Source of the DNA: an uncultured Erythrobacter sp.
GTDB taxonomy: Bacteria; Pseudomonadota; Alphaproteobacteria; Sphingomonadales; Sphingomonadaceae
DNA length: 64,000 bases
Reading direction: 5' to 3'
NCBI RefSeq assembly: GCF_947492365.1
Contig: NZ_CANLMB010000001.1
Location: forward strand, 1,912,874-1,976,873
Part shown: positions 22,955 to 39,025 of the stretch, piece by piece
How positions within the stretch are numbered: the first letter of the stretch is position 1
How the letters are laid out: the number at the start of each line of letters is the position of its first letter
Notes under the pieces: generated by a model
What the model saw: only the letters and a program-made list of their open reading frames with translations
Database searches by the model: none
What the model was told of the DNA's origin: nothing
Position numbers and translations under genes: made by a program

Positions 22955-24100
22955 TCAATTCCCCCTGTAATAATTATGCGGGACAAACGGCATGGGTGTA
23001 ACGGTGGCTGGAAGGCGCTTCTTGCGCACTTCGCAGGTCAGTTCTGTGCCTTCCAAGGCGTGCTGTGTATCGACATAGGCCATCGCAATCGGGTGGCCGA
23101 GCGTGGGCGAGAAGCCGCCGCTGGTCACGGTGCCAACCTTGGTGTCGCCTGCATAGACTTCGGCCCCTTCGCGCGCGGGCATGCGGCCATCGATCGCAAG
23201 GCCAACGCATTTGCGTGCAGTTCCTTCGGTGATCTCGCGGCAAATCCGTTCTGCGCCCATAAATCCGCCTTCGCTGCGGCGACGCTTGTTGATGCCGAAT
23301 ATCAGGCCCGCTTCGATGGGACTGATTTCGGGCGAAAGATCGTGGCCATAAAGCGGCAATCCCGCCTCAAGACGCAGACTGTCGCGCGCGCCCAAGCCGA
23401 TGGGCAGAACTTCGGGCTCGCCGCAAAGCAGGTCTGCGACTTCCGCAGCGGCGCTGGCGGGCAGCGAAATCTCGAACCCGTCCTCGCCAGTATATCCAGC
23501 GCGCGCAATCGTCACATCGTGACCACCAAGCTGAAACTGGCCAAAGCGCATGAAGGTTAGATCGGAAAGCGAATATTCGCCGCTCGCATGGCGCGCCAGA
23601 GCGTCGGCCGCTTTCGGACCCTGCAAGGCCAGCAGCGCCTGATCTTCCATATGGTGCAGCGTGATCTCGTCGGGCAGATGTTCGCGCAGATAGCCGATAT
23701 CGTCATATTTACACGCGCCGTTGACGACGAGATAGAGGTGGTTCGGCCAGCGCGATACCATCAGATCATCAAGCACCCCGCCATGCTCGTCGAGCAGCAG
23801 TGAATAGCGCTGTCGGCCCAGCTTCAGGGTCGACAAGTCGATCGGAAGAATAGCCTCGACCGCTGCATCCAGCCCATCGCCCGACAGCAAGAGCTGACCC
23901 ATATGCGAGACATCGAACAGGCCCGCATTCTCGCGCGTCCAATTGTGTTCACCCACGATCCCGCCATGCTCTCCGGCATATTGGATCGGCATTTCATAGC
24001 CGGCAAACGGCACCATACGCGCGCCCTTTGCACGGTGCCATGCATCGAGCGGCAAAGTGCCAAGCTCGGGAGTTTCTTCGTCTATCTGGTCGTCGCTCAA
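22955..24100 (-). CDS. gcvT: Aminomethyltransferase (glycine cleavage T protein)
   Basis: Folate-dependent T protein of 381 aa that releases ammonia from the aminomethyl-lipoyl arm and forms methylene-tetrahydrofolate. Landmarks are MVPFAGYEMPIQYAG, the conserved FDVSHMGQLLLSG, ARAGYTGEDGFEISLP, and LGARDSLRLEAGLPLYGHDL with the folate-binding residues. First gene of the operon, about 52 bases downstream of the tandem glycine riboswitch. The N-terminal extension (DDQIDEETPELGTLPLD) is a little longer than in E. coli. Confidence 0.96.
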   Translation of the reverse strand: MSDDQIDEETPELGTLPLDAWHRAKGARMVPFAGYEMPIQYAGEHGGIVGEHNWTRENAGLFDVSHMGQLLLSGDGLDAAVEAILPIDLSTLKLGRQRYSLLLDEHGGVLDDLMVSRWPNHLYLVVNGACKYDDIGYLREHLPDEITLHHMEDQALLALQGPKAADALARHASGEYSLSDLTFMRFGQFQLGGHDVTIARAGYTGEDGFEISLPASAAAEVADLLCGEPEVLPIGLGARDSLRLEAGLPLYGHDLSPEISPIEAGLIFGINKRRRSEGGFMGAERICREITEGTARKCVGLAIDGRMPAREGAEVYAGDTKVGTVTSGGFSPTLGHPIAMAYVDTQHALEGTELTCEVRKKRLPATVTPMPFVPHNYYRGN

Positions 24101-24152
24101 AATCAGTTTCCCGAACAGGTATTCGACGCCTCACGATCAAAGCATCGTTCCT

Positions 24153-24352
24153 GCCCCCTCTGTCGGGAAAACCTGAGAGCTTAGCGATGGCTATGTCACA
24201 AGCCGGCGCCTTCCCCTTCGGTGGCAGCAGGCATAGCCCGCCGCGCTTTCCAGAGTGCCTGTGCCGTGACGCGGTCCGTTTGCCTGAGAGTTTCCGGGGC
24301 GGTTGCTCCTTCGGCGCCGAGCCCCCTTGCAAAAAGGGCCAAGTCTCTCCCG
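24153..24352 (-). promoter_or_regulatory. Tandem glycine riboswitch controlling gcvT operon
   Basis: Two aptamers on the minus strand in the 5' leader of gcvT. The first opens with GGGAGAG near 24352 and holds GCGCCGAAGGAGCAA and GGAAACTCTCAGGCA. The second holds CACCGAAGGGGAAGG and AGCTCTCAGGTTTTCCCGAC, ending near CAGAGGGG. Repeated CCGAAGG and CTCTCAGG elements with a short linker are diagnostic of the cooperative glycine sensor, which normally turns gcv genes on when glycine is high. A weak promoter candidate, TTGACG at 24417-24412, lies just upstream. Confidence 0.92.
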
Positions 24353-24486
24353 CGAAAGACGCCGGAATCACTCCCGGCAGGCGCTTCGTGTCTTGCCCAA
24401 GCATCGCCGCACGTCAATCGCGTAGCGACAGCTTGTCAGGAAAAATATGCGGAAATGCGGCTTTTAGGGGGAAATACTCCGCGCGC

Positions 24487-24837
24487 TCAGCAATCGCCAG
24501 CAGTGAGCGTGTAGCTTTGGCCGCTCGCTTCGGTCACTTCGACCGTTGCGCACCAGCCATCGCCGATATTGGTCCTCAGACGCGAGAGCACGTGGCGATC
24601 GCCTGCAGCAATGCTGGTATTGCCGCTGTGCCGAGAGCGCGAGCCGCCGACCAGTTCGAGCTCATACTCGACTTGCTGCGTTACCGGCGAATTGGCGACG
24701 AGCTGGATTTCGACCATGTCGCCGCTCTCTTCGACATCGAGCGTTAGAGCGCGCGTGGTCTCCGAATGCGCGCTTCCGGCTGTGCCGAATGCCAGCGCGA
24801 TGGCGGTTGCAGCCATTCCCTTGGCAAGATTGCGCAT
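24487..24837 (-). CDS. csgH: CsgH-like curli chaperone / amyloid inhibitor
   Basis: Periplasmic protein of 116 aa after a signal peptide (RNLAKGMAATAIALAFGTAG ending near SAHSE). The mature part is a small all-beta domain: VEIQLVANSPVTQQVEYELE, then RHVLSRLRTNIGDGW, then VTEASGQSYTLTAGDC. This matches CsgH, the alphaproteobacterial functional analogue of CsgC that blocks premature curlin polymerisation. Two cysteines (GWCATVE and the C-terminal residue) may pair. It is the last gene of the curli locus, 11 bases after the preceding gene, consistent with a chaperone for the large subunits encoded upstream. Confidence 0.75.
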   Translation of the reverse strand: MRNLAKGMAATAIALAFGTAGSAHSETTRALTLDVEESGDMVEIQLVANSPVTQQVEYELELVGGSRSRHSGNTSIAAGDRHVLSRLRTNIGDGWCATVEVTEASGQSYTLTAGDC

Positions 24838-24848
24838 TTTCGCTCTCC

Positions 24849-25580
24849 TCAGTTCCCGCCCAATTGCTGGACGATTGCAGCGACCAGAGCCTGCGTTTCC
24901 TGCGATAGCTCGCCGTTCGGATCGCCCTCTGCATCGGTTGCCTGACTGTCGCTTAACGTCTGATTGCCGAGCGCTACGGAAGCGATCACCTGATTGGAGA
25001 AATTGTTCGAATTGCCGGTGTTGCGCGACAGTCGGTTGATCGCCGCCTCGAGCGTCGCCACGCGTTCGCTATCGAGCCCGCCGCCCAGCAGACTGTCTTC
25101 AGCCGAGCCGCTGTCCGCCTGTGCAAAGTCAGCCGAGCGGGTTTCGATCCGCCGGGCGCACAATTCCTGCAAAGCGGGAATGTCGCTGCCGCGGTCGCAA
25201 ATATCGGTGCCTTCAACCGCTTCGAGCAGAACCTGCCGTTCAGCCGCGGAAAGTTGCGCGAGCGCCTGCGATGAATTGCCGTCGGAAAGCTGCGCGACTT
25301 CTTCCTGCGGAGCATCGCTGGCCGGCAATTGCTGCGATTGGGCGGACCGCGCGCGGGCCACGCTGTCGGGCGTGATCGCGTCGGGGAAGTAGACTTTGGA
25401 AGACTGGTCTTCGATCTGTGCAGGGGCCTGCGCGGCAGTGCTTTGACCGGTCGGCGCTTGCTCGACATAGACCGATTGGGCTTGCGTGTTCGATTGCGCC
25501 AGCGCGCCGGTCGCGGCGGCGAGTGCGATGCAGGCCAGACTGGCCGAGGCGGCGAAGAGGCGGGTGTGTTTGCTCAGCAC
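24849..25580 (-). CDS. Uncharacterised exported protein of the curli locus
   Basis: Not recognised. The 243-aa product has a signal peptide (FAASASLACIALAAATGALA) cleaved near AQSN, then a Gln/Ala/Ser-rich disordered stretch, an Ala-rich helix with QLSAAERQVLLEAVEGTDIC, a likely disulfide pair (DICDRGSDIPALQELCARR), and a C-terminal half with Asn-rich NRLSRNTGNSNNFSNQVIAS and ELSQETQALVAAIVQQLGG. It is not like CsgE, CsgF or CsgG. GTG 25580 is chosen because GGAGGG sits 4-9 bases upstream; 25676 would overlap the previous gene. It sits between the small curlin and csgH, so a role in fibre assembly or surface attachment is inferred from position only. Confidence 0.7.
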   Translation of the reverse strand: MLSKHTRLFAASASLACIALAAATGALAQSNTQAQSVYVEQAPTGQSTAAQAPAQIEDQSSKVYFPDAITPDSVARARSAQSQQLPASDAPQEEVAQLSDGNSSQALAQLSAAERQVLLEAVEGTDICDRGSDIPALQELCARRIETRSADFAQADSGSAEDSLLGGGLDSERVATLEAAINRLSRNTGNSNNFSNQVIASVALGNQTLSDSQATDAEGDPNGELSQETQALVAAIVQQLGGN

Positions 25581-25591
25581 CTGCCCTCCGC

Positions 25592-26200
25592 TCAGTTCGA
25601 CTGCGAGATGATTGCCACCGCGCCGCCGGTCTGGACGATGTTGAGATCGGACAGGCCGGTTCCGTTCTGGGTCCATTCAAGGCGGTTGCCGTCGCTGAGC
25701 TGGGTGGCGGTCATCGCATTGGCATCACCGGTCTGCGTCAGCGTCGCCTGATTGTCACTGCCGTCCTGCGCCAGTGTAATCGTGTTGCCATTGCCGTTCT
25801 GGACGATCTCCGCAAGCGAGCCGAGCCCGCCGGGATTGTTCTGATAGATATCGGCGCTGTTGCCATTGCCCAGCTGCGCGAGGGACAATTCAACGTCGCC
25901 ATCGCCTTCCTGCAGCACAGCCATTTCGTTGTCGTCGCCGCTCTGCTCTACAGAGGCGCTATCATCGCCGCTGTCGCGCTGTTCGATATTGGCGAGATTG
26001 CCAGACCCGTCCTGATCCACCGTAGCGCTTTGCGTAGTGCCCGCCGACTGGTCGAGCTCGATCGTGTTTCCGGTGCCGATTTGATCGATGAAGACGCTGT
26101 TCGACTGCGCGGCGAGCGGTGCCGAGATGAGCGCCGCTGCCAGCACAGTGCCAGTAAGCAGGCCATTCCGGCCGGTCAGGTTAGCAAAAGTCGACTTCAT
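25592..26200 (-). CDS. Small curlin-repeat protein F (candidate CsgB-like nucleator)
   Basis: Secreted curlin-like protein of 202 aa. After the signal peptide (LLTGTVLAAALISAPLAAQ) the mature part is almost entirely QxGxxN-type units, for example FIDQIGTGNTIELDQ, IVQNGNGNTITLAQDG and NQATLTQTGDANAMTATQ, roughly eight to nine two-strand units. The repeats are more degenerate than in the large paralogues, contain more Glu/Arg, and the protein ends AVAIISQSN with no GTGNxxTVTQ cap. Size and distal position suggest the minor nucleator role of CsgB, which is an inference. ATG 26200 precedes the signal peptide; an upstream start at 26284 has no support. Confidence 0.8.
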   Translation of the reverse strand: MKSTFANLTGRNGLLTGTVLAAALISAPLAAQSNSVFIDQIGTGNTIELDQSAGTTQSATVDQDGSGNLANIEQRDSGDDSASVEQSGDDNEMAVLQEGDGDVELSLAQLGNGNSADIYQNNPGGLGSLAEIVQNGNGNTITLAQDGSDNQATLTQTGDANAMTATQLSDGNRLEWTQNGTGLSDLNIVQTGGAVAIISQSN

Positions 26201-26312
26201 GGTCACATCATACTCGATTTCTTGGTCGATCGGGAGGGCGCGCCTAGCAACCCTCCCGAAAGCTCTTGTGGCGAAGCGCAGCAATGCGCCCGGCCGAATG
26301 AACGGGGCCTGA

Positions 26313-28019
26313 TTACATGCCCTGCGTGACTGTCACCGTGTTGCCGGTCCCGTCTTGGAACACGCTCGATGTGTTTCCATCGAGAGCCTGCATGACATTG
26401 GCAGAGTTGCTGGTGCCTTCCTGTTCAATGAAGCTGGTGTTGTCATTACCATCCTGAAGAACGGTCGCCATGTTGAGCCCGCCCGCAGTTGCGAGGTTCT
26501 GGGTCACTTCGCTGAAGTTATCGTCGCCGCCTTGCGTGACATCGGCGACATTGCCGTCGGCGCCAGTTCCAGCACCGCCAGCGAAGCCCTGGTCAATTGC
26601 GCTGAAGTTGCCTTCGCCGATCTGGAAGAGGTCTGCATCGCTGCTGTCGCTATTCTGGAACACCAGCGAAGTGCCGTTGTTACCGTCCTGATCGACATTG
26701 GTATCGCCGCTCGCGCCGCCAAAGTCACCCTGAACAACTGTGCTTTCATTGCCATCACCGATTTGGTCGACAAAAGCGACCTGCGTCGCGCCGCCCTGAA
26801 CGATCAGCGATGACAGATTGTCGCCTGCCTGATTGGAGGTTGCGGTCGCATCATTCGCCCCGCCAGTGACGCCTCCAAATGCGGAAGTGTCACCTTGCAC
26901 GATGAACGAGAAGTTGTTCGTGCCGCTGGTCTGATTGATTGTGGCAACGCTGGCTGTGGCAGGAGCGCCGTCAACCGCATCGCCGGTTTGAACGATGCCC
27001 GCATCCGCACCGTCTGTGCCAGCGCTCTGCGTGATCGTTGCGGTGTCTCCGCGAGCCTGATCGACCTGCTCTACAGTTGCAAAACCATTGTCACCATCTT
27101 GAGTGATAGTGGCAAAGTTGTTGCCATCATCGGGACCCGGATTGCGGCCATCCTGGAATATACCCGTAAAGTTGCCCGAACCGGTTTGTGTGATCGTTGC
27201 GGTCTGGCCAACGGCGCCTGCATCGTCCTGGAACACGTCGGATTCATTGCCGGTTCCCGATTGATTGAGCGTCGTAAGGTTGCTGCGACCTTGCTGCTCA
27301 ACATTCGAGACACCGTCATCGCCGGTTTGCGTCACATTCGCCGTGTTCTGGCGCCCCGTAATCGAGGACTGAACGACAGTCGAAGAACTGTCATTGCCTG
27401 ACTGGATAATTGTCGCGGTGTTCTGACGATTGAACTGGCTGACATCCGAAGAATTGCCTGCGCCGGTTTGTGTTACAGTCGTCGTCAGATCACCATCATT
27501 GAGACCGCCACCAAGATCGGCCTGACTGATAATCGAGGAATGACCATCACCAGTCTGATTGACCGTCGCGACAAAGTTGTTTGCGGTTTCGTTGGCAGTG
27601 GTCTGCGCAATGTCTGATGCGCTCGCTCCGTTCTGAGTGACCGTTGCCGACATAATACCCGAATTCAGGCCGCCTGCCGACTGGCTCACGACCGAGTCTG
27701 CCCCGCCTGCCTGGGTGACAGTCGCGGTCAGATCGGTAGCGCCAACACCGGGCGTGGTCTGATCGATGTTCGAGATATTGCCATCCGCATCCTGATCGAC
27801 GGTAGCGGTAAGCGTGTCGCCGTCCTGCACCACATCGGAAACGTTGCCGGTGCCGCCGCTCTGATCAACATTGGCGGTCACGCCTGTGCCGGTGGAATCA
27901 ATCACAGAGCAATTTCCCGTGACGCCGACACATGCGGGCGGAACCACTGCTTGAGCGAAAAGCGGTGCGGCGGCGGTGAACGCCAGAGCCGATGCGCTTG
28001 TGAGAATGATCTTTTTCAT
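26313..28019 (-). CDS. Giant curlin-repeat protein E
   Basis: Predicted secreted amyloid subunit of 568 aa. Signal peptide (LTSASALAFTAAAPLFAQA), then a mature N-terminus with the pair CVGVTGNC, then about 24 two-strand units estimated from length. Units are 11-residue half-repeats such as TVTQAGGADSVVSQ and NVTQTGDDGVSNVEQQG. Between the regular stretches are longer loops, for example DQGFAGGAGTGADGNVADV near the C-terminus. It ends FQDGTGNTVTVTQGM. The N-terminus is nearly identical to protein D while the C-terminal third is closest to protein C, so the gene looks mosaic. Very acidic with few Lys/Arg. Confidence 0.88.
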   Translation of the reverse strand: MKKIILTSASALAFTAAAPLFAQAVVPPACVGVTGNCSVIDSTGTGVTANVDQSGGTGNVSDVVQDGDTLTATVDQDADGNISNIDQTTPGVGATDLTATVTQAGGADSVVSQSAGGLNSGIMSATVTQNGASASDIAQTTANETANNFVATVNQTGDGHSSIISQADLGGGLNDGDLTTTVTQTGAGNSSDVSQFNRQNTATIIQSGNDSSSTVVQSSITGRQNTANVTQTGDDGVSNVEQQGRSNLTTLNQSGTGNESDVFQDDAGAVGQTATITQTGSGNFTGIFQDGRNPGPDDGNNFATITQDGDNGFATVEQVDQARGDTATITQSAGTDGADAGIVQTGDAVDGAPATASVATINQTSGTNNFSFIVQGDTSAFGGVTGGANDATATSNQAGDNLSSLIVQGGATQVAFVDQIGDGNESTVVQGDFGGASGDTNVDQDGNNGTSLVFQNSDSSDADLFQIGEGNFSAIDQGFAGGAGTGADGNVADVTQGGDDNFSEVTQNLATAGGLNMATVLQDGNDNTSFIEQEGTSNSANVMQALDGNTSSVFQDGTGNTVTVTQGM

Positions 28020-28091
28020 CGTAGCCTGCCTCTTCGTTTGCCGCCCGATGCGGCTTTGTATTCGTACCGGAGCCTTCCGGTAAGTTCGGAA

Positions 28092-28126
28092 CCTGACCGG
28101 CAGAGCCTCCTGCTCCGCCGGTCAGG
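28092..28126 (-). other. Intergenic hairpin between curlin genes D and E
   Basis: Perfect 10-base inverted repeat CCTGACCGGC (28092-28101) and GCCGGTCAGG (28117-28126) a few bases after the stop of curlin gene D. No T tract follows on the minus strand, so it fits a partial terminator, RNA-processing or 3'-end-protecting hairpin better than a full terminator. A second smaller hairpin (TACCGGA/TCCGGTA) lies at about 28066-28083. Confidence 0.55.
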
Positions 28127-28137
28127 ATCAATCGTGA

Positions 28138-30696
28138 TCAGGGCGTGCCCTGCGTGACCGTGGTCATGTTGCCCACGCCGGTCTGGCTGATGGTCGACAT
28201 GTCGCCCATTCCGCCTTGCGTGACATCGGCGACATTCGAAGTGCCGTCCTGCGTGATGCTAGAAACCGCCAGCGATGAACCAGCCAGCTGCGTCAATGTA
28301 GCCTGGTTGGTGGTGCCAGACTGATCGATCAGCGACATACCCTCTGTTCCGTTTTGATCCGTGGTCGCCAGATTGCTGACACCGCCTACATTCTGCGTGA
28401 CTGTCGATCCGTTTTCATTGCCGATCTGGGTAATGAATGCCCGGTCATCGGTTCCTGACTGCGTAGCGGAGGCAACATTGTCATCACCCCTCTGATCGAT
28501 GGTTGCATTGGTGCTGAAGAAGCCGGTTGCATCGCCGTCCTGCAGAATTGTGCCATCGTTGCGATCTCCAAGCTGGGTGATCGTAGCAGTGGCCAATCCT
28601 CCCGGGCCATTGGTCGTGGATTGGGTGATCGAGGCGACGTTGTCGTCAGAGTTGCTTTGAGTGATGGAGGCCAAAGTGTTGACGCCGTCCTGGAGAACGG
28701 TGAGCTCGTTACGATCTCCCAACTGCGTAGTGTTCGATGCGTTGGCGCTGCCCGTCTGATCGACATCAGCCATATTGGCGGTGCCATCCTGGTTGACACG
28801 AGCCACCGGGCTCCCGCCAATTCCTGGCAGTCCAAAGCCGATGGCACCCTGAACGGCGGATTGGTTCACATCGGCAACGTTGTCCGCGCCGGCCTGAATT
28901 ACGAGCGCTCCAGCAGTGCCCGTCGGTGACGATTGAGTAATCGTGGATTGCTGATTATCACCGCTCTGCTCGACAATTGCCTCATCGCCAACGCCTGATT
29001 GAGTCACTTCGGAAAAGCTGTTGGCGGACATCTGAGTGATGTCCGCGCTCGCATCATCCCCGGTCTGGGTGACAATCGAGGTGTTGTTGTCGCCGGTTTG
29101 CTCAACATCACCGATATTGTTCGCGGCGGTCTGTGTCGCGGTGTTGGTGTTGTTATTTCCGGTCTGACTTGCGAGGAACAGGCCCGAGGTTCCGCTCTGG
29201 CCGACATCGGAGAAGTTACCGTCGCCCGCCTGGAACGTCTCGGAATTATTGCCCGTTCCGCTCTGGGCAGTGAAGGCGGCATTCCCGTCGCCGCTTTGCT
29301 GTTCGATCAGAGCCTCGTTGGCGCTGATCGGGTCGCCTGCAGCCGCGTCACCTGTCTGGGTGATCGCCGCATTGCCGTTGCTCGAAGCCGCGCCCTGGAA
29401 AATGACCGCGACATCGCCGCGTGCATTGTCGCTCTGCAAAATACCGGCGAAGGAGCCGTCACCGGACTGGATCAGCTCGGCACGGTTGGCGCGCGGATTA
29501 CCGCCGCCATCATTGCCCGAACCGGCATCACCGGTCTGCACAATCTCACCGACATTGTTGTCACCGTTCTGCGTGACATCGGCAAACATCGTGTCGCCGC
29601 CTGCCAGCTGATCGACGAAGCTCATATTGCCGTCGCCATTTTGAGTTACGTTGACATCGGCGCGGCTAACATTTTCCTGATTGACGGCCGAGGTGTTGTT
29701 CGACCCTTCCTGTATAATCACTGTGTCGATATCGACGCCGCCATTGGCAGGACCGACCTGCACGAAAGACGTGTTGTTGCCGCCGGAGATATTGAGCAGG
29801 TTCTGGTTGACTGTGACACGGGCCGAGAATGCGCCGTCCTGGATGATGTCGGAATTGTTGTCGACGCCGTCCTGATTGACAGTCGCGGTCAGGCTGAAGC
29901 GATCCTGCGTGATGGTCGATGTGCCGCCCGTGCCGGATTGCATGACCGTGGCTGTGCCGCCGCTAGCCGCCACCTGATCGATCTCTGACGAATTGTCGAA
30001 GCCCGATTGCGTGACAGTCGCCGTTTGCGAGCGGGCGCTGGCTGTCTGGTCGATGCGCGAGAAGTGGGCATCGCCCGTTTGGGTCACGGTTGCATCCGCG
30101 CCGTTGTTCGTGCCGCTGATGATCTGGGTGATCTGCGATTCGCTTGCGCCATCCTGCGACACGATCGCGCTACCCGTAGTGGGGTTCACATTGGTTGTGC
30201 TCTGCAGGATCGAAGATGTCGCGCCGTTCGACTGCGTCACATCTGCGATCAAGGCGCCATCCGCACCGCCGCTGGCATCCTGCGCAACAATGGAAGAACT
30301 GCCATCCGCATCCTGATCGACATCCGCAGACAAAGTGGTGGTGACACCAGTTGCCGTTTGATCAATGTCGGAATCGTTGCTGTTCCCGTCCTGATTGATG
30401 ATCGCAAGCGGATCGGCCAGCGCAGCGCCGTCATCCTGTTGATCAATATTCGAGAGGTTATCCGTGCCGTTCTGGTCGACATCGGCATCAGCGCCGATTG
30501 CGTCCTGAATGACTTCCGAAGCATTCCCCGTGCCGGTTTGATCCACCGCGACATCGTTGTCGCTGCCGGTGGAGTCGATAACACTGCAATTGCCTGTGAC
30601 GCCGACGCAAGCGGCCGGTGTGGTTGCCTGGGCGAAAAGCGGTGCGGTTGCGGCAAGCGCGAGGACCGATGCGCTTGTGAGAATTGTCTTCTTCAT
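28138..30696 (-). CDS. Giant curlin-repeat protein D
   Basis: Predicted secreted amyloid subunit of 852 aa, about 38 two-strand units by length. Signal peptide LTSASVLALAATAPLFAQA and mature start with CVGVTGNCSVIDSTG, shared with protein E. Repeats read like TVTQSGFDNSSEIDQ, IVTQTGDDASADITQ and NVASATQSGTDDRAFITQIG. A long loop GAIGFGLPGIGGSPVARVNQ interrupts the ladder at about 28795-28860, at the place where A and B also have loops. The C-terminus is VTQGGMGDMSTISQTGVGNM followed by TTVTQ, shared with A and B. ATG 30696 is preferred over 30723 because it begins the signal peptide. Confidence 0.9.
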   Translation of the reverse strand: MKKTILTSASVLALAATAPLFAQATTPAACVGVTGNCSVIDSTGSDNDVAVDQTGTGNASEVIQDAIGADADVDQNGTDNLSNIDQQDDGAALADPLAIINQDGNSNDSDIDQTATGVTTTLSADVDQDADGSSSIVAQDASGGADGALIADVTQSNGATSSILQSTTNVNPTTGSAIVSQDGASESQITQIISGTNNGADATVTQTGDAHFSRIDQTASARSQTATVTQSGFDNSSEIDQVAASGGTATVMQSGTGGTSTITQDRFSLTATVNQDGVDNNSDIIQDGAFSARVTVNQNLLNISGGNNTSFVQVGPANGGVDIDTVIIQEGSNNTSAVNQENVSRADVNVTQNGDGNMSFVDQLAGGDTMFADVTQNGDNNVGEIVQTGDAGSGNDGGGNPRANRAELIQSGDGSFAGILQSDNARGDVAVIFQGAASSNGNAAITQTGDAAAGDPISANEALIEQQSGDGNAAFTAQSGTGNNSETFQAGDGNFSDVGQSGTSGLFLASQTGNNNTNTATQTAANNIGDVEQTGDNNTSIVTQTGDDASADITQMSANSFSEVTQSGVGDEAIVEQSGDNQQSTITQSSPTGTAGALVIQAGADNVADVNQSAVQGAIGFGLPGIGGSPVARVNQDGTANMADVDQTGSANASNTTQLGDRNELTVLQDGVNTLASITQSNSDDNVASITQSTTNGPGGLATATITQLGDRNDGTILQDGDATGFFSTNATIDQRGDDNVASATQSGTDDRAFITQIGNENGSTVTQNVGGVSNLATTDQNGTEGMSLIDQSGTTNQATLTQLAGSSLAVSSITQDGTSNVADVTQGGMGDMSTISQTGVGNMTTVTQGTP

Positions 30697-30767
30697 GGTT
30701 CTAACCTCTCGAATGTTGTTCATTGCGACACATTCGCGTGCGGGATCTTTTGTCCCGCTTATGTGTT

Positions 30768-30794
30768 GCCGGGCGAGCCCCCCGCCCGCCCGGC
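30768..30794 (-). other. Intergenic hairpins between curlin genes C and D
   Basis: GCCGGGCG (30768-30775) pairs with CGCCCGGC (30787-30794) just after the stop of curlin gene C. A second stem GCGGGA/TCCCGC follows at 30740-30758. Neither is followed by a convincing T run on the minus strand. As with the D-E gap, these could reduce read-through or protect the upstream message and so set subunit ratios. Confidence 0.5.
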
Positions 30795-30804
30795 TATCGG
30801 TGTC

Positions 30805-31845
30805 CTACTGGTTCACCGTGATGGAGTTGCCGGTGCCGCCCTGCGTGACAGACGAGAAGTTCCCGTCGGTCAGCTGGTTGACCGTTGCACTCAGAGTGCT
30901 TCCGTCTTGCGTAACGAAGCTGACATTGTTGTCGCCAGCCTGAAGCACGTCAGCGATATTGCCGCTGCCAGCGGTCGTCTCGTTCTGCGAGATCGCGCTG
31001 AAGTTGCCCGATCCGTCCTGCGCGATGCTCGCGGTGTTGTTGTCACCGCCAACGCCTGCGCCGCCGACAAAGCCCTGATCGATCAGGGCAAAGTTGCCGG
31101 TGCCGTTTGCCTGGCCGATATCAGCGTCGTTGCCGTCGCTGCTCTGAGCGATTTCAGCGCTATCGCCGTCACCGATCTGCAGAATGAAGGCATCGTTGGT
31201 GCTGCCGCCGAATGCACCCTGCGAAACGATTGCATCGTTGCCCGAGCTAGCCGTGAGCTGATCTATAAGGGTGATCTGGTCGGCCCCGGTCTGGATGTTC
31301 AGCGCAACATTGTTGTCGCCTTCCTGACGAACGATCGAGCTGGCATTTGTAGCGCCCGAAACTGTGCCACCGACAAGCGAGCTATCGCCTTGAACGATCG
31401 CAGTGAAGTTGCCGATTCCGTTCCCGCCACCTTGGAAGACTTCAGCGAAGCCATTGAGCGAGTCCGTCTGGGTAACTTCAGCCGATGCGACCTGAGTCGA
31501 CGCCTGGTCGATATTGGCGGTGTTGCCGTCAGAAGTGCCGTCCTGGATCACATCGGCAAACGAGCCGTTTGAACCTGCCTGCTGGATAACATTCGCGGTA
31601 TTGGAACCGGTCGCAGTCTGATCGATATCAACTTCGTTACCCGTGGTGTTGATACCGGTCTGGGTCACGTCGGCGTCATTGTTGTCGCCAACCTGATTGA
31701 TGTCGGACGTGTTCGCATTTTCTTGCGTGACGTCGGCCGCGTTGCCGGTGCCGTTCTGGGTGACGGTCGAAGTGCTCTGCGCGAAGGCCGGGCTGGCCAG
31801 TCCGAGAGCAAGGATCGATGCGCCTGCTAGGATTGTCTTTTTCAT
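30805..31845 (-). CDS. Curlin-repeat protein C
   Basis: Predicted secreted curlin-type subunit of 346 aa. Signal peptide KKTILAGASILALGLASPAF with AQ at the cleavage site, nearly the same as protein B. The mature protein goes straight into repeats (TSTVTQNGTGNAADVTQ), about 15 units by length. Its C-terminal half parallels protein E, sharing an IDQGFVGGAGVGGDNNTASI block and a QGAFGG loop. It ends VTQGGTGNSITVNQ. GAGGACCAAGACC precedes ATG 31845. At 346 aa it is the shortest of the five large curlins but still more than twice the length of E. coli CsgA. Confidence 0.88.
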   Translation of the reverse strand: MKKTILAGASILALGLASPAFAQSTSTVTQNGTGNAADVTQENANTSDINQVGDNNDADVTQTGINTTGNEVDIDQTATGSNTANVIQQAGSNGSFADVIQDGTSDGNTANIDQASTQVASAEVTQTDSLNGFAEVFQGGGNGIGNFTAIVQGDSSLVGGTVSGATNASSIVRQEGDNNVALNIQTGADQITLIDQLTASSGNDAIVSQGAFGGSTNDAFILQIGDGDSAEIAQSSDGNDADIGQANGTGNFALIDQGFVGGAGVGGDNNTASIAQDGSGNFSAISQNETTAGSGNIADVLQAGDNNVSFVTQDGSTLSATVNQLTDGNFSSVTQGGTGNSITVNQ

Positions 31846-31924
31846 GGTCTTGGTCCTCTTCATTCAAATTCGTCTGTTCAATTCATGCGACGGGCAATTC
31901 TGCGTGCCCTTCTAAATCTGCGTT

Positions 31925-34585
31925 CTAATTCTGAGTCACGGTGACGGCGTTGCCGGTGCCGATTTGCGAGACGCTCGACATGTCACCCATTCCGCCCTGA
32001 GTGACGGTTGCGGTATTGCTTGTGCCGTCCTGAAAGATGGAAGAACTGTTGAACGTCCCATCCTGATTGAGCGTTGCATTGTTGCTGGTTCCAACCTGGA
32101 TGACATCCGAGGTTCCGTCATCGCCGTTCTGATTGATATCGGCAGTGTTCGTGAAGCTCACCGGATTTTGAACTATTGTCGATACATTGCGATCGCCGAT
32201 CTGGTCGATGAAGGCGACGTTATCGGTGCCCGATTTCAGAACGTTGGACGAGTTGTTGTTGCCGATCTGAATGGCCTGCGTTTGCTGCGTAAAGAAGCCG
32301 GTGGCGACGCCCTGATCATCGATCCGCGAGAAGTTGTCATCGCCGGTTTGGTTCGGCTGGGCGAAGGTGATACCTCCAGCGGTTGAAATCCCAGACATCA
32401 ACACCTCGGCGGTGTTGTTGTTGCCGGTCTGGTTGAACGAAGAATCGGTGTTATCACCGCTCTGAAGGATAGAGGCGGTGTTTCCGTCACCGGATTGATT
32501 GAACCGACCGATATTGCTGTTGCCGGTCTGGGTAATGATGCCAGTGTTCCCGTCGCCATCCTGGCCGACAAACGCAACCTGACCGGATGTCCGACCCCCG
32601 GCATTATTGAAGAAATCGGCAAATCCGCCTGACTGATCAATGGTGGCTGTATTGTTCGCCCCGAATTGTATGACCTGAGCAGCAGCAGACGCATTGAGTG
32701 CCCCGCCGGCATTGTCAGTGGAGCTTTGAGTGATAGTCGACGTCTGATTGGTGCCGAACTGCTCAACATCAGCAAAGTTGAAATCACCGGTCTGGGTCGC
32801 AGTTGACGTGCTGTTGTCGCTCAATTGATCGATATCGAGCTCGCCATTGGTGCCTGTCTGAGACGCGGTTGATGTGTTGCCATCCCCATCCTGCAGGACG
32901 TCGGCGAGATTGTCCGACCCTCCTTGGGTCACCGTCGATGCGTTGCCGATCCCGCCGGTCAGAACGATTGCATTGTTGAGCATGCCGCTCTGCGTGACAG
33001 TCGAGGTGTTCTCATCACCAATCTGATCGACTGTCGCATCGTTCTGGTCGCCCGATTGCGTCACCGTGCTGGTGTTGGCGAGCATATTGGCATTGAGGTC
33101 GATACCGAACTGAGTCACCGTGGCGGTGTTGTTCGTATCCGACTGAGTGACCGTCGACACATCGAACTCGCCGTTCTGGTTGACGTCGGCAAGGTTCGCA
33201 GAACTGCCGACTGCCTGCGTCGCTGTTGAAGTGTTGTTGTCGCCAAGCTGGTCGACAAGCACCGTGCCGTTTTCTCCCGAGGCGGTTACGTTAGAAGTGT
33301 TGTCGCTGCCCCCCTGAAGGATAGTCACGATGCTGCCCGAGGGGACATCAAAGGAATTGGCCGCGCTACCAAGGACAGTCGTGCTGGAGTTGAAATTGCC
33401 TGACTGGGTCAGCGTGTGCGTGCTGTTTTCTGCAGGCTGGTCAAGGCTGGCAAAGTTGTCATCGCCGCTCTGGGTAATGGTGCTGGTATTGTTGTCATCA
33501 GCCGGGCCCGAGGCGTTGATTCCCTGACGAAGGACATTGGCCGTGTTCCGGCTGCCGTCCTGAGTGATCGTGCTCACCTGATCGCCAGACACCTGACCCT
33601 GCACAACCGTAGCGATATTGTCATCACCGTTCTGGGTGATCGTGCTGTCGCTGTCCTCCGAACGCTGCGAGGTGTCGGCGATGTTGTTTTCGCCCGTCTG
33701 GGTATGGGTGATGGTCGAATCGTCATCATCCTGGAACGCGCTCGAATCGTTGCCGTCGCCGCTTTGCGTGATCAGCACGACACCGCGGTCGGTGTTGCTG
33801 TCCTGATCGACAAAGCTGGTGTTGAGCACGCCCGACTGGATTACGTCGACATCGCCCTCTTCGCCGTCTTGGATGACAGTCGAAACATTGTCCGCTGCGG
33901 TCTGCTCGACATTGGCGTTGTTGGCGCGCTGTGACTGGTTGACGGTGGAGACGCCGTTATCGGAAGATTGCGACACGGTCGCGACCTGATTCAGCGCACT
34001 CTGCGTGACTGAAGATGTGTTATCCGATCCGGTCTGGTCGACATCGGCCGAACCGTTGGTCCCGCCCTGTGACACAGAAGAATCGTTGCCGCTCAGGATC
34101 TGGAAGACATCGACCGTCCCGGCACTGCCGGTTTGGGTCACGCTGGAAATCGAACCATCGCTGTCCTGATTGACAGTTGCCATGTTGGTCGAGCCGGATT
34201 GTGCGATATCGGAATCGTTGCCGAGACCAGCCTGCGTGAAGCTTGTGGTGTTGGTCAGACCGCTTTGCGTCATCGCGGAGGTGTTTTCGTCCCCGATCTG
34301 GAACGAGGTGATGGTGTTGCCGTCACCCGCCTGATCGATGTCGCTGGCATTGGTGTTGGCCGTCGCGCCAGTAATGAGGATACCCTGCTGCTCGACAGTA
34401 ACCGAAGAATTGTCCGCGCTCTGATCGACGATCGACGAATTGCCGCCATCGGGGCCGCCCTGCGTCACCGAAAGAGTGCTGCCGGTTCCCGTTTGAGAAA
34501 TGGTGCTGGAATTGCTTTGCGCCAGCGCGGGGCTTGCCACGCCAAGAGCAAGGATCGACGCGCCTGCTAGGAATGTTCTTTTCAT
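31925..34585 (-). CDS. Giant curlin-repeat protein B
   Basis: Predicted secreted amyloid subunit of 886 aa, the largest here, about 39-40 two-strand units by length. Signal peptide RTFLAGASILALGVASPALA. Mature start SNSSTISQTGTGS and the VTQGGPDGGNSS block are shared with protein A. The ladder is strictly 11-residue in many places, for example TVTQSGDQNDATVDQIGDEN. Inserted loops include QGINASGPADDNNTSTITQ and SGGFADFFNNAGGRTSGQV. It ends VSQIGTGNAVTVTQN. The ribosome site TAGGAGG overlaps the stop of gene A, leaving 13 bases between the genes, so A and B should be made together. Confidence 0.9.
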   Translation of the reverse strand: MKRTFLAGASILALGVASPALAQSNSSTISQTGTGSTLSVTQGGPDGGNSSIVDQSADNSSVTVEQQGILITGATANTNASDIDQAGDGNTITSFQIGDENTSAMTQSGLTNTTSFTQAGLGNDSDIAQSGSTNMATVNQDSDGSISSVTQTGSAGTVDVFQILSGNDSSVSQGGTNGSADVDQTGSDNTSSVTQSALNQVATVSQSSDNGVSTVNQSQRANNANVEQTAADNVSTVIQDGEEGDVDVIQSGVLNTSFVDQDSNTDRGVVLITQSGDGNDSSAFQDDDDSTITHTQTGENNIADTSQRSEDSDSTITQNGDDNIATVVQGQVSGDQVSTITQDGSRNTANVLRQGINASGPADDNNTSTITQSGDDNFASLDQPAENSTHTLTQSGNFNSSTTVLGSAANSFDVPSGSIVTILQGGSDNTSNVTASGENGTVLVDQLGDNNTSTATQAVGSSANLADVNQNGEFDVSTVTQSDTNNTATVTQFGIDLNANMLANTSTVTQSGDQNDATVDQIGDENTSTVTQSGMLNNAIVLTGGIGNASTVTQGGSDNLADVLQDGDGNTSTASQTGTNGELDIDQLSDNSTSTATQTGDFNFADVEQFGTNQTSTITQSSTDNAGGALNASAAAQVIQFGANNTATIDQSGGFADFFNNAGGRTSGQVAFVGQDGDGNTGIITQTGNSNIGRFNQSGDGNTASILQSGDNTDSSFNQTGNNNTAEVLMSGISTAGGITFAQPNQTGDDNFSRIDDQGVATGFFTQQTQAIQIGNNNSSNVLKSGTDNVAFIDQIGDRNVSTIVQNPVSFTNTADINQNGDDGTSDVIQVGTSNNATLNQDGTFNSSSIFQDGTSNTATVTQGGMGDMSSVSQIGTGNAVTVTQN

Positions 34586-34598
34586 CTGCCTGGTCCTC

Positions 34599-37142
34599 CT
34601 AGTTCTGCGTCACGGTGGCGGCGTTGCCGGTGCCGGTTTGCGAGACACTCGAAAAATCACCAATGCCGCCTTGCGTGACGGTGGCTCCGTTGAGGTCGCC
34701 GTTCTGCGCAATGACGCTGATCCCATCAGTCCCGTTTTGCGTGACAGTGAGGGTGTTGTCGGTGCTGATCGCGTCAAACCCTTGCTGGGCAAGGCTCAGA
34801 TTGCCGGATCCGTTTTGAGTGACAGTCGCAGTGTTGGTCGCGCCGCCAGTAAAGCCCTGATCGATTTCGCTCTCGTTGCCATTGCCATTCTGGTTGAGCG
34901 TCGCGACTTGCGTGGTGCCGCCCTGGAACACACGGCTGATGCCGTCGTTGGCAGACTGGTTGACATCGGCGGTGCTGGTGGCGCTACCGGCGATCTGCAC
35001 GACCAGACTGTCATTGGCGTTGCCGACCTGATCGACAAAAACGCGATTGTCGGTGCCAGACTGGGTGACGTCTGAAACATTGTCATCGCCAATTTGCATC
35101 GGGCGAACCAGCAGGGTTTGAAATCCTGCCACAGACACGCCGTCCTGAAGCACGGTTGAGGTGTTGTTGCTACCCCGTTGAGCAGTCTGAACATCGGCAA
35201 GGCCTGGTGCAGCGGTCAGACCCGACTGCGTAATGGTCGATGTATTCCCGTCGCCCATTTCCTGCGTCACCACCGCCAACATGCGATCGCCATCTTGCGT
35301 GACGGTCGAGGTGTTCATCGAGCTGTCTTGGAACACGCTGGCGTTTGCCGAATCGCCGGGCTGGTTCACGGTGGACGTGTTGCCCGTGCCTTCTTGCCTC
35401 ACGAACGCGGTGACGGAAGCAGAGCCACCGGGGACGCCCCAATTGATCCCGGCATTCCCGCCGCTCTGGTCAATGGTGGAAACATGATCCGCGCCGATCT
35501 GCTCACTTCGCGCAAATGAGGAAAAAATTGCCCCACCAAGGTCAGTCGAGGACTGCGTGATGGTCGAGGTCTGGTTGGTCCCGGACTGATCAATATCCCC
35601 AATATTCTGATCACCCGTCTGGGTCAGCGTCGCAGTGCTGTCATCGCTGACTTGCAATACCGTTGCATCACCATTGGTGCCGGTCTGGCTGAGCGTCGAA
35701 GTATTGTCGTCGCCATCCTGATCGACATCCGCAACATTGGCCATGCCAGATTGCGTAATGCCCGATGTGTTACCCGTACCACCCTGAAGCAAATTAGCCA
35801 GATTGAGGGTGCCGCCCTGCGTCATGGTTGAGCTGTTTTCGTCGCCCACTTGCGCAGAGACCACAATGCTCATGTCACCGCTTTGAGTGACAGTGCTGGT
35901 GTTGGTGGTCGCAGGCAGACCAAGGTCAAACCCGGTTTGCGTGACCAAGATCGAGCTGTTGTCTCCGCTTTGATCGACCGTCGAGCTTCCGCCGCCAAAG
36001 ACGCCGTCCTGCACAATTGTGGTCGTGCTGTCAGTGCCCGATTGGGTGATCGCCGACGTATTGTTGTCGCTCGATTGCGTGACAGTGGCGGTCGGACGAA
36101 TGCCGCTCTGCGTTCCGGTCGAGCTGTTCATATTGCCAGACTGGGTAACAGTGAACGTGCCTTCATCACCCGGCTGATTGACCGAGGCGAAGTTGTCGTC
36201 ACCGCTTTGGATGAAGGTCGCGGTGTGGTCTTCATTGCCGCTCGCAGAAAGACCGGTGCCCTGGCTTTCGACCCGCGCTTCGTTGCGGTCGCCGGTTTGC
36301 AGGATGTCCGCGAGGTTGAGCTCGTTGATCTGGCGAACCACGGCGATGTTGTCATCGCCTTGCTGATTGACAAAAACATCGTTGTCATCGTCAAGCGGGC
36401 CAGTGCCGTTGATACCCTGCTGGACATCAGAGGAGTTGCGGTCACCACTTTGCGTGATCGTCGCCGTCTGATTGTCCGAGATAATGCCTTGAACAAGCGT
36501 CGAAGTGTTCATCTCGCCGCTCTGCGTCACAAAAGCATCGCTGTTCGATGCGCGCTGATCAATCGTCGAGGTGTTGTCGCTACTGGTTTGCAGAACAACC
36601 GCATTGGTGTTGTTGTCATCGCGCTGAGTGATGGTGCTCGAATTGCGCTCGCCCAGCTGATCGACATCGATCGTACCGTCGAGGTCTGACTGCGTGATGG
36701 TCGAAGTGTTGTCGTCGCCATCTTGCAGAACATCGGCGAAATTATCTGTGTCGGACTGGCTCACGGTCGAGCTGTTGCCGATGCCGCCCTGGACCAGCGC
36801 GACTTCCATATCGACGCCGCTTTGGGTGACGGTGGAATCGTTCGCATCACCGGTCTGCGCCGAATTGACGATCTGGTTGGCGCCAGCCTGCGTGATGTCG
36901 CTGGAATTGGTGTCGGGGCTTGGTGCGACAAGATCAATGCCGGTCTGCGTAACATTGATCGTGCTGGTGTCAGCGCTCTGATCGACAGTCGAAGAGTTAC
37001 CACCATCCGGACCGCCCTGCGTGACAGAGACGGCGCTGCCTGTTCCGGTTTGAGAAACAGTACTCGAATTGTCCTGCGCTGAGGCTGTCACACTTACCGA
37101 AAGCGCCAGCGTCGAAACTGCAAGATATAGGTAGTTCTTCAT
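34599..37142 (-). CDS. Giant curlin-repeat protein A
   Basis: Predicted secreted amyloid subunit of 847 aa, about 38 two-strand units by length. Signal peptide YLYLAVSTLALSVSVTASAQ, different from the other paralogues. The mature start NSSTVSQTGTGSAVSVTQGG is very close to protein B, and loops QGINGTGPLDDDNDVFVNQ and GNAGINWGVPGGSASV sit where B has its loops. It ends SVSQTGTGNAATVTQN. ATG 37142 has AGGTGA 7 bases upstream; 37193 would add 17 residues before the signal peptide. A 195-base gap upstream, after csgG, probably holds a separate promoter. Confidence 0.9.
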   Translation of the reverse strand: MKNYLYLAVSTLALSVSVTASAQDNSSTVSQTGTGSAVSVTQGGPDGGNSSTVDQSADTSTINVTQTGIDLVAPSPDTNSSDITQAGANQIVNSAQTGDANDSTVTQSGVDMEVALVQGGIGNSSTVSQSDTDNFADVLQDGDDNTSTITQSDLDGTIDVDQLGERNSSTITQRDDNNTNAVVLQTSSDNTSTIDQRASNSDAFVTQSGEMNTSTLVQGIISDNQTATITQSGDRNSSDVQQGINGTGPLDDDNDVFVNQQGDDNIAVVRQINELNLADILQTGDRNEARVESQGTGLSASGNEDHTATFIQSGDDNFASVNQPGDEGTFTVTQSGNMNSSTGTQSGIRPTATVTQSSDNNTSAITQSGTDSTTTIVQDGVFGGGSSTVDQSGDNSSILVTQTGFDLGLPATTNTSTVTQSGDMSIVVSAQVGDENSSTMTQGGTLNLANLLQGGTGNTSGITQSGMANVADVDQDGDDNTSTLSQTGTNGDATVLQVSDDSTATLTQTGDQNIGDIDQSGTNQTSTITQSSTDLGGAIFSSFARSEQIGADHVSTIDQSGGNAGINWGVPGGSASVTAFVRQEGTGNTSTVNQPGDSANASVFQDSSMNTSTVTQDGDRMLAVVTQEMGDGNTSTITQSGLTAAPGLADVQTAQRGSNNTSTVLQDGVSVAGFQTLLVRPMQIGDDNVSDVTQSGTDNRVFVDQVGNANDSLVVQIAGSATSTADVNQSANDGISRVFQGGTTQVATLNQNGNGNESEIDQGFTGGATNTATVTQNGSGNLSLAQQGFDAISTDNTLTVTQNGTDGISVIAQNGDLNGATVTQGGIGDFSSVSQTGTGNAATVTQN

Positions 37143-37242
37143 ACTTGTATCACCTGACATCACAGGCGATGACCGCAGAACGCAACGACGCATTGAGACG
37201 TCGAGCTATCAGGATATCGCCATCCAATTCACTGCACGCATC

Positions 37243-37256
37243 GGAGTTGCAGCTCC
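37243..37256. promoter_or_regulatory. Near-palindrome upstream of curlin gene A
   Basis: GGAGTTGCAGCTCC is a 14-base near-perfect palindrome about 100 bases upstream of the start of curlin gene A, in the 195-base gap after csgG. A second perfect palindrome, CGGTGCGCACCG, lies at about 37302-37313 close to the csgG stop. Either could be an operator, but no regulator is assigned and no convincing -10/-35 pair was picked. Confidence 0.3.
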
Positions 37257-37337
37257 TTTGCGTGCGTTTCTTCTGCGACCCGCGATGCGCCCTCATTTTT
37301 TGCGGTGCGCACCGACTTCAATTCAAAAGCTTCTCGA

Positions 37338-38318
37338 CTACGACCCCCCGTCGTTGTCATCCCCGTCATCGACCACCGTTAGAGCGGTCAGCGAGCCTGC
37401 GCGTTCGACTGCTTGCTGCACGTCGCGCGCATCGTAAATTCCATCACGCTCTGCGCGGTAGGTGCTGAGCAGCGCCTCGGCGCCTTCCATGTCGGCGAAA
37501 CGCCACAGGCCCAGATCGACGCCTTCGAGCACCAGCCCGTAAACCGCCTTTTCAATGGCTTGCTGGAGCGCGACCTGATCTGGCTCATTCGAAGTGATGC
37601 CCCACTCCGCTTCAAGCAGTTCGCGGAAAGCCACAAAGCGATAGGCACTTGCGCCGATGGCCTGACTGGCAATCGTCTTGGATGCCTGAACATTGGTGAG
37701 CACTTCGCCGGTGCGCACAGAAACCGCGCGCAGGTAAACCGTCACAGTGTCCTGCCGGTATTCGGTCCGCGCCCCGATGCCGAGAAACGCTGCACCAGCG
37801 CCTCCGGTCACAGTGTTGGTGTCATAGCCGACGATCCCGCCTTCGAGCAGCACGCCGGCAAACAGCAGAGCGGGCAGCGCATTGGGATCGATCTGCTCTT
37901 CACCGAGATAGCGGCGGCGCATTTCGCCGATGATCTGGCGTTCTTTCAGCAGGTTATCGAGACGCTCGCGCTCGACCACGGTGAACCATTGACGGTCGCC
38001 CGCATCCTGCAGAGCCTTTACCAGGATCGAACCTGCGCCCTGCGTGACAGCGCGCGACAATGTCTGACCGGTATTGGTCGGTCGGAACTGGCCGGTCTGA
38101 TCGGTGAAACCATAGACTGCAATCGCCACCTGCCGCTGCGGGCCAGGAAGCTGTTGCAGCAGATTTTGCGTCTGCGTTTTCTTGGGGAAGTAAGCGAGGC
38201 TGGTGCTTTCGGGCAGCAGATTGCGCCCATCCTGCCCAACACTCATACACCCGCCCAGACCAAGGGCGAGCGCGGTGGCCAGACCGATCTTCGCGCCAAG
38301 TTTCGCAAGGGCGCGCAT
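37338..38318 (-). CDS. csgG: CsgG-like curli secretion channel lipoprotein
   Basis: Outer-membrane lipoprotein of 326 aa that should form the ninefold curlin export pore. Lipobox LGGC follows a short signal peptide. CsgG landmarks: IAVYGFTDQTGQFRP, GSILVKALQDAGDRQWFTVV, ERERLDNLLKERQIIGEMR, LEGGIVGYDTNTVTGGAGA, FLGIGARTEYRQDTVTVYLR, VSVRTGEVLTNVQASKTI and RELLEAEWGITSNEPDQVAL. The eyelet loop after GQFRP reads TNTGQTLSRAV, without the Tyr/Asn/Phe found in E. coli. The C-terminus is longer than usual (YRAERDGIYDARDVQQAVE onwards). ATG 38318 overlaps the csgF stop by one base. Confidence 0.95.
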   Translation of the reverse strand: MRALAKLGAKIGLATALALGLGGCMSVGQDGRNLLPESTSLAYFPKKTQTQNLLQQLPGPQRQVAIAVYGFTDQTGQFRPTNTGQTLSRAVTQGAGSILVKALQDAGDRQWFTVVERERLDNLLKERQIIGEMRRRYLGEEQIDPNALPALLFAGVLLEGGIVGYDTNTVTGGAGAAFLGIGARTEYRQDTVTVYLRAVSVRTGEVLTNVQASKTIASQAIGASAYRFVAFRELLEAEWGITSNEPDQVALQQAIEKAVYGLVLEGVDLGLWRFADMEGAEALLSTYRAERDGIYDARDVQQAVERAGSLTALTVVDDGDDNDGGS

Positions 38319-38740
38319 CAGTTCACCTCGATAAACAGAGGGATCACGATGCGGGTTTCTTCGCCCGTATCATCATTGCGGATGATCAGCGTCACCTCAT
38401 CGAGTGAGCGGAAGAATTCGATTGTCTGACCGCCGAAACTGATCGTGCCCGATTCTTGCGGATTTTCGCCAAAGATCGCGTCGACAATCTGCGACGACAG
38501 CGCTGACAAGAGCCGCGATTCCAGCTGGCGGGCGAAGATGCTCGACTGGCTGTTGCGATCAACTGCATTGGGGTCGGTCGTGTTGTTCTGCGCGTTGGCA
38601 GTGCCGAGAATGTGATTGGAATTAAAGGGGTTGCCGCCGAAAGTCGGGCTGATCGGCTCATGCACCAGATCCTGTGCCAGCGCCGGACTCGCGATTGCAC
38701 AGCAACCAAAAGCCGCAGCAAACGCAAAAGAGCGTATCAT
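38318..38740 (-). CDS. csgF: CsgF-like curli assembly factor
   Basis: Secreted accessory of the curli channel, 140 aa. After a signal peptide (RSFAFAAAFGCCAIASPALA) the mature N-terminus has SPTFGGNPFNSNHILGTANA followed by QN, matching the conserved CsgF segment PxFGGNP...AQAQN that plugs the CsgG neck. The helical neck (SSIFARQLESRLLSALSSQI) and the C-terminal beta head (GTISFGGQTIEFFRSLDEV) follow. ATG 38740 starts the signal peptide; a start at 38776 adds 12 non-signal residues. First gene of the locus, coupled to csgG by TGATG. Confidence 0.92.
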   Translation of the reverse strand: MIRSFAFAAAFGCCAIASPALAQDLVHEPISPTFGGNPFNSNHILGTANAQNNTTDPNAVDRNSQSSIFARQLESRLLSALSSQIVDAIFGENPQESGTISFGGQTIEFFRSLDEVTLIIRNDDTGEETRIVIPLFIEVN

Positions 38741-39025
38741 CCTCAATTCCCCCCTGCCCATAGGCAGCCCTAACAAAGGTTAATTTTCTCGATGAGCGAA
38801 AATGCAATGATCCACTCTGCGAGTCGAGCAATTTAATAACACTATGATACAAATTAGCCAGCTTTTCCGACGTTTTAATCGGAGCTTACCGCATTATGGC
38901 TTCGCTCTGCCGTGCGGTGGAAGCGAGCCAATGCTTACCGGAAATGGTTAACGCCGACCTAGGTGAAGGTGCGTAGGACTGAGCCTCTCACAGGACTTTT
39001 CGGGAAATTGGCGGAGAATTGGCGG
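38741..39025. promoter_or_regulatory. AT-rich region upstream of csgF
   Basis: This 285-base stretch between the metH 3' end and csgF has no gene. The part at about 38770-38880 is markedly AT-rich compared with its surroundings (for example ATTTAATAACACTATGATAC), as expected for the promoter and operator of the curli locus on the minus strand. GGGGGGAATTGAGG precedes the csgF ATG. No confident -10/-35 pair or known operator was identified. Confidence 0.45.

Follow-up and report, generated by a model that had tools for sequence, protein, structure and literature searches.

A ten-gene curli-type locus with five large curlin subunits and a conserved unnamed protein in an uncultured Erythrobacter sp.

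A 64,000-nucleotide stretch of DNA from an uncultured Erythrobacter sp. (hereafter the window) was found to carry ten open frames in one minus-strand block (38740-24487), in the order csgF-csgG-R1-R2-R3-R4-R5-small curlin-orfX-csgH, where R1 to R5 are the larger curlin-repeat subunits and orfX encodes a putative exported protein. Its membership among curli systems is sound. The best explanation of the block, with a probability of about 0.88, is a curli (type VIII secretion) locus of the Erythrobacter group that lacks CsgE, is of the CsgH type and works as proposed below. What is new here is orfX, a conserved unnamed family, together with an apparent division of labour among the subunits. The orfX product, conserved, apparently exported and co-occurring with curli, bears on how alphaproteobacteria manage curli without CsgE. 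Natural test cases for the effect of repeat number on curli fibres are also provided by the subunits, which are very long and probably not equivalent. Published work is cited from excerpts of PMC3521004 (Dueholm 2012), PMC10192328 (Sleutel 2023), PMC4838910 (Taylor 2016) and PMC12172448.

Identification of the locus

The ten-gene curli-type layout proposed in the first-pass annotation was confirmed. The frames are open at the positions given in Table 1; CsgF, CsgG and Curlin_rpt were recognised by Pfam and CsgH by NF041112, so that Pfam and NCBIfam together assigned all genes of the block except orfX. The curlin repeat profile (PF07012) scored above its cut-off in 6/6 repeat proteins, in agreement with their annotation as curlins. 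The csgF and csgG genes overlap by 1 base, 195 bases separate csgG from R1 and 13 separate R1 from R2. The gaps between curlin genes after R2 measure 79-118 bases, and 11 bases precede orfX and again csgH.

The csgG product matched the Escherichia coli CsgG structures with E ~5e-51. Matches of CsgF to CsgF chains of the Protein Data Bank (PDB) covered the N-terminal part (E 7e-4 to 2.4e-3). CsgH reached 50.5 bits with NF041112 (cut-off 35), while its score of 21.1 with the Pfam CsgC model stayed below the cut-off of 25. Two cysteines of CsgH, Cys96 and Cys116, are invariant in 25 aligned members; they form no CxC motif and both lie near the C-terminus. In Rhodopseudomonas palustris CsgH, the fold and function of which are treated in PMC4838910, the excerpt places the cysteines far apart, likewise without CxC, and their bond staples the first and last strands. 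The staple may thus differ in the present protein.

The block is not the full curlin set of the genome. Two more curlin genes were found elsewhere, at L009:4909-5949 (C1 ~1295 kb, 346 amino acids) and L010:5533-7302 (C2 ~695 kb, 589 amino acids). Neither has a CsgG of its own, CsgG giving a single match in the whole genome against three curlin sites, and the outlying curlins may use the same pore as the block. An OmpA-domain gene (L010:7640-8605) comes after the L010 curlin.

Table 1 Genes of the curli-type block, with positions in the window; curlin lengths are counted from likely start codons
Gene	Position	Strand	Length (amino acids)	Assignment and remarks
csgF	38318..38740	-	140	PF10614 E 4.7e-30, 104.9 bits vs cut-off 25.8
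csgG	37338..38318	-	326	PF03783 E 6e-59; lipobox LGGC; outer-membrane secretion pore
R1, large curlin	34599..37142	-	847	Curlin_rpt E 8.7e-65; ~32 two-strand units
R2, large curlin	31925..34585	-	886	Curlin_rpt E 2e-64; ~34 two-strand units
R3, curlin	30805..31845	-	346	Curlin_rpt E 6.1e-23; ~12 two-strand units
R4, large curlin	28138..30696	-	852	Curlin_rpt E 5.3e-48; ~30 two-strand units
R5, large curlin	26313..28019	-	568	Curlin_rpt E 3.2e-32; ~20 two-strand units
Small curlin	25592..26200	-	202	Curlin_rpt E 2.6e-17; ~7 two-strand units
orfX, exported protein	24849..25580	-	243 (GTG start assumed)	no Pfam/NCBIfam family
csgH	24487..24837	-	116	NF041112 E 1.6e-13; periplasmic anti-amyloid chaperone family

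Distribution and layout in relatives

Among 296 genomes of the order, CsgF was detected in 29 (28 above the cut-off) and curlin repeats in 28. From the 28 other CsgF-positive genomes, 27 CsgF-centred loci were inspected; G060, which scored below the cut-off, was left out. The order csgF, csgG, curlins, orfX recurred, and the orfX profile was positive in 21/27 loci, once weakly. A scan of named genomes with the orfX alignment yielded 24 loci, and six of the 27 loci above are duplicates of these; orfX is present in all 24 by construction. Nineteen are titled Erythrobacter or Erythrobacteraceae, and the other five belong to a Qipengyuania, Altererythrobacter xiamenensis, a Porphyrobacter and two unclassified relatives. 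In 24/24 named loci orfX is placed after the last curlin, the small one, and before csgH. These loci hold 1-4 large curlins (741-2934 amino acids for all curlins) vs five in the window (3701 amino acids); the count for L071, which starts inside the block, is a lower bound.

The window is therefore the extreme of a layout common to its relatives, and its scale is the extreme of the known range. The multi-paralogue layout had been taken as undescribed, a claim not supported as far as many or large paralogues are concerned. These are already published: up to six csgA/B and up to 22 repeats are given in PMC3521004, and curlins of 4-62 repeats, in as many as 30 copies in a single genome, in PMC10192328. 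The extra accessory gene, on the other hand, represents a real conserved family.

Curlin subunits

A position-specific count, trained on the window curlins and the two orphan curlins and with a background of 4.4 false units in every 1000 residues of shuffled sequence, found 258 half-units in R1-R5, or ~129 two-strand units, and 272 half-units (~136) when the small curlin was included. The earlier estimate of about 150 was thus somewhat high. E. coli is an unfair yardstick of size because curlins range from 4 to 62 repeats in the survey excerpted from PMC10192328. Each subunit is acidic, as had been noted, with a net charge of -21 to -87. Nothing pointing to the suggested calcium binding turned up, no calcium-motif test being made. 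The idea of a thicker fibre runs against published data, since according to the same excerpt repeat number sets the length of the monomer and the lateral size of the fibre is conserved; lateral bundling was also seen.

R1 contains an internal copy ~335 residues away, and its best counterparts in relatives have only 474-496 amino acids vs its own 847. R2 is a paralogue of R1 (50% identity). Counterparts of R3 were found in seven named relatives with 53-61% identity. For R3, R4 and R5 taken together, counterparts in several relatives share 50-67% identity, compared with 36-50% among the paralogues of the window. The assignment of orthologues is clear for R5 and R3 and marginal for R4, and the R5 counterparts are conserved along their full length. 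As judged from sequence, relatives retain several of the large curlins as distinct orthologues, so the large curlins are probably not interchangeable copies.

R4 and R5 carry an N-terminal Cys30/Cys37 pair. Pairs of this type occur in 16/99 curlins, in 10/24 named loci, and are invariant in eight aligned R5-type rows; a disulphide cap is a possible function. R5 was predicted to adopt the curli two-strand beta-solenoid, the best VIA-align match to its model being the Pontibacter R15.5 CsgA (PDB 8c50). By eye, the N-termini of the exported parts look signal-like. As to an N22-type secretion signal on the subunits, the repeats of R1-R3 begin, again by eye, no more than a few residues from the likely signal end.

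R1, R2 and R4 exceed the cut-off of the NCBIfam 'curli minor subunit CsgB' model (211-248 bits vs 165), presumably due to their repeat number. Automatic naming may consequently label proteins of ~850 residues as CsgB. The NCBIfam CsgA and CsgB models fail to separate the two kinds of subunit here.

The small curlin as candidate nucleator

The C-terminal repeat of CsgB is degenerate at the first Asn positions, according to the PMC10192328 excerpt. In the 24 named loci, the final strand starts with Asn in none of the 24 small curlins vs 52/75 other curlins, and the small curlin of the window likewise lacks the initial Asn. A W.Q.G..L signature was present in 24/24 small curlins and 0/75 others, having been picked by eye on these same loci after a narrower terminal pattern had matched only 13/24. 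On 15 further orfX loci it was found in 12/15 last curlins and 0/39 others. The small curlin of the window carries this Trp signature too. Because of its CsgB-like degenerate last repeat, the small curlin is proposed, by analogy, as a candidate CsgB-like nucleator.

The orfX family

The orfX protein of the window gave no match in Pfam or NCBIfam at E ≤ 1, and none of 25 members of its family matched a Pfam family at E ≤ 0.01. No description of the family was found in the open-licence PubMed Central (PMC) literature, among the matches listed. Two cysteines, Cys128 and Cys141, are invariant, and the residues G124, D126, C128, C141, E146, R148, F152, E161, L164 and A200 are all retained in 21 diverse members.

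The window protein alone matched 15/296 genomes of the order, and a 21-sequence profile 24/296. Of these, 21 matches are strong (E ≤ 1e-46); the remainder comprises a deletion scar (G254, locus L051) and two marginal matches, G294 and G147, which have E ~1e-3 and cover profile positions 1-105 in frames of 493 and 808 residues. CsgF is present in 21/21 genomes with a strong orfX match. Among the listed congeners, orfX occurs in 10/10 CsgF-positive and 0/13 CsgF-negative genomes. In six of 21 orfX loci (L039, L042-L045, L048) orfX is present though the csgH profile matched no frame of at least 80 amino acids at E ≤ 10; for L042 the orfX match is weak and one frame looks CsgH-like by eye.

When the orfX profile was iterated, one curlin (L029) was drawn in; after this and L051 were dropped, 21 loci were kept, L042 weakly. 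CsgF proteins entered the iterated profile as well. A relationship to CsgF was rejected, a profile comparison that still included the L051 row giving 8.6% probability; the intrusion likely arose because L051 fuses csgF with the C-terminal half of orfX. At L051:3304-3924 a deletion scar joins the N-terminal part of csgF in frame to that half, csgG and the curlins being missing, and this fusion can mislead profile searches. An AlphaFold2 model of orfX built from 25 sequences contained helices only and was of low confidence (mean predicted local distance difference test score, pLDDT, 59.4; predicted template modelling score, pTM, 0.21).

Proposed mechanism and alternatives

The six curlins, orfX and CsgH would be delivered to the periplasm, as their signal-like N-termini suggest. 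There CsgH would hold the acidic curlins unfolded, as proposed from its tested R. palustris relative, and the single CsgG-CsgF pore would export them in this state, including the two encoded elsewhere. The small curlin would dock at the pore through its degenerate C-terminal repeat and nucleate in the manner of CsgB, which has the same terminal feature. On this template the large curlins would fold into long two-strand beta-solenoids, a fold modelled for R5 only, and the solenoids would assemble end to end, giving a single fibre that has long subunits but an ordinary width. For the orfX product the most likely role is that of a helper, in the periplasm or beside the pore, dedicated to the subunits of this lineage. 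A wider proposal is speculative and, taken whole, improbable: orfX would be an unnamed lineage-specific biogenesis factor that either acts in place of CsgE to prime or cap CsgG or works as a partner of CsgH, and enables a single pore to export subunits 350-900 residues long, and the large curlins would form one composite fibre of non-equivalent subunits.

Several observations weigh against the proposed working of the locus as curli. CsgE was undetectable in the genome (0 matches at E ≤ 10); in control searches 4/14 genomes, E. coli among them, gave matches and one was above the cut-off. In E. coli, CsgE works at CsgG. The E. coli CsgG stretch PASNFS, the narrowing of that pore, aligns with GQTLS in the window CsgG, so pore details may differ from E. 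coli; QTLS or QSLS stands at this place in 47/48 readable rows, duplicates counted, L038 differing and the L070 fragment being unreadable there. Orthologue and paralogue identities meet at 50%, R4 being the weakest case. With the R5 model as query, Foldseek found nothing significant (8c50 at rank 27, E 4.0), and the solenoid agreement comes from VIA-align. As to the nucleator, 23/75 large curlins also end without Asn, and the W signature, chosen post hoc on 24 loci, is absent in three of the 15 others (L039, L041, L042) and from the small curlin of each of three loci that have no orfX (L049, L050, L052). The synonymous rate (dS), which exceeds the nonsynonymous rate (dN) in 8/8 genes tested, is at or near saturation. 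Fibre formation and the role of orfX are, moreover, read from genes.

The lack of a CsgE match could be accounted for if orfX replaced CsgE, capping or priming the periplasmic mouth of CsgG and selecting curlins. We consider this doubtful. The protein looks exported, sits with csgH, accompanies CsgF in all the strong cases and is present in the six loci without a csgH-profile match, of which L042 is uncertain. Yet the orfX profile matched no CsgE chain of the PDB at E ≤ 10, and the predicted structure of orfX is poor. In a class-wide sample of 385 genomes orfX was found in one, that of the window itself, vs CsgF in seven (six above the cut-off), and no orfX was seen in stretches from five of the six other CsgF-bearing genomes. 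A substitute for CsgE is thus not generally needed, since CsgF genomes outside the family lack orfX and the excerpt of PMC3521004 reports Alphaproteobacteria as without csgE. For the latter reason CsgE does not define this branch of curli either.

It was also considered whether the classes R1/R2, R3 and the cysteine-pair R4/R5 polymerise apart into several fibres used in different conditions, with RNA hairpins setting the amounts; this looks unlikely. Some paralogues are retained as distinct orthologues, and extra curlins lie alone elsewhere in the genome. Stable intercistronic hairpins, without a clear U-run, were found on the transcript strand between R3 and R4 (30697-30804, z -4.7) and between R4 and R5 (28020-28137, z -4.4), but folding in the R2-R3 and R5-small curlin gaps was not significant (z -0.6 and -1.1). 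Low-energy folds recur in many curlin gaps of relatives, some with perfect 12-15-pair stems (10/24 named loci examined), as tested against composition shuffles only. Against separate fibres stand, in addition, the single CsgG match and the presence of just one small curlin of its type, and the PMC10192328 excerpt suggests that conserved architecture may permit mixed fibres.

That orfX is a degenerate curlin turned minor fibre component is very improbable. It adjoins the curlins, its N-terminal half is Gln-rich and an early profile iteration took in one curlin; however, its unit scores are no better than shuffles (mean z 0.55, 25 members), a repeat-profile comparison gave 0.2% probability and the low-confidence model is all helices. 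A decaying or non-functional remnant retained by chance, as might be imagined from the curli-negative congeners and the scar in L051, is hardly credible with ten of ten frames open, R5 counterparts conserved at full length and dN below dS (dS near saturation).

Genomic site and flanking features

The block is flanked by housekeeping genes, a split methionine synthase upstream and gcvT, gcvH and gcvP downstream. A glycine riboswitch (24262-24362), upstream of gcvT, marks its downstream edge. CsgF is missing in 13/23 sampled congeners. In all 13, the distance between the metH and gcvT matches is 0.3-3.2 kb and the riboswitch is present at the empty site, where tblastn with the proteins of the window and of 8/24 named loci detected no csg remnant (E ≤ 0.01). 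One curli-negative congener, G255, retains a solitary curlin gene, located on a different contig. Of the 24 named loci, nine have the block flanked by both metH and gcvT, and three more by one of these genes; in the other 12 neither gene was seen in the retrieved sequence, so some members of the group carry the block elsewhere. A single fixed site for the whole group was therefore not borne out. The role of orfX can be tested directly in this group, which includes several named strains as well as curli-negative congeners in which the equivalent site has been located.

LuxR-type (GerE) regulators, possibly local ones, lie near two relatives' loci (L042:7266-7844 and L051:2522-3124). Tandem Repeats Finder at default score reported no array in 22000-42000, and scans for sigma-70 promoters and terminators gave results at or near chance. 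A tRNA-Lys called by ARAGORN at 26715-26810 was taken as false, as it lies inside R5 and is without Rfam support.

Comparison with known systems

The E. coli curli system (csgBAC-csgDEFG, type VIII secretion), to which the excerpt of PMC12172448 confines its use of curli, shares with the window the CsgG pore, CsgF, curlin-repeat subunits, a chaperone of the CsgC class (here CsgH) and a small subunit whose end is degenerate as in CsgB. In contrast, CsgE is undetectable in the window system, the genes all run in one direction, an extra exported protein is encoded, and other residues occur where E. coli CsgG narrows. Five subunits of 346-886 amino acids stand against one E. coli CsgA of ~150.

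Closer are the alphaproteobacterial csgH-type loci of PMC3521004, where csgH is described, and PMC4838910. In the excerpts of both, these have csgH beside the curlins, csgE not found and a variable number of subunits. They differ in that extra copies often lie in extra operons, whereas six curlins stand in one block of the window, and in that the excerpts do not mention orfX. The large curlins of the 'curliome' (PMC10192328, as excerpted; 8c50) show the same long N-x-psi-x-psi-x-Q-x-G repeats and predicted two-strand beta-solenoids; the set in the window differs from them in combining several classes within a single locus, some of which have a cysteine pair at the N-terminus.

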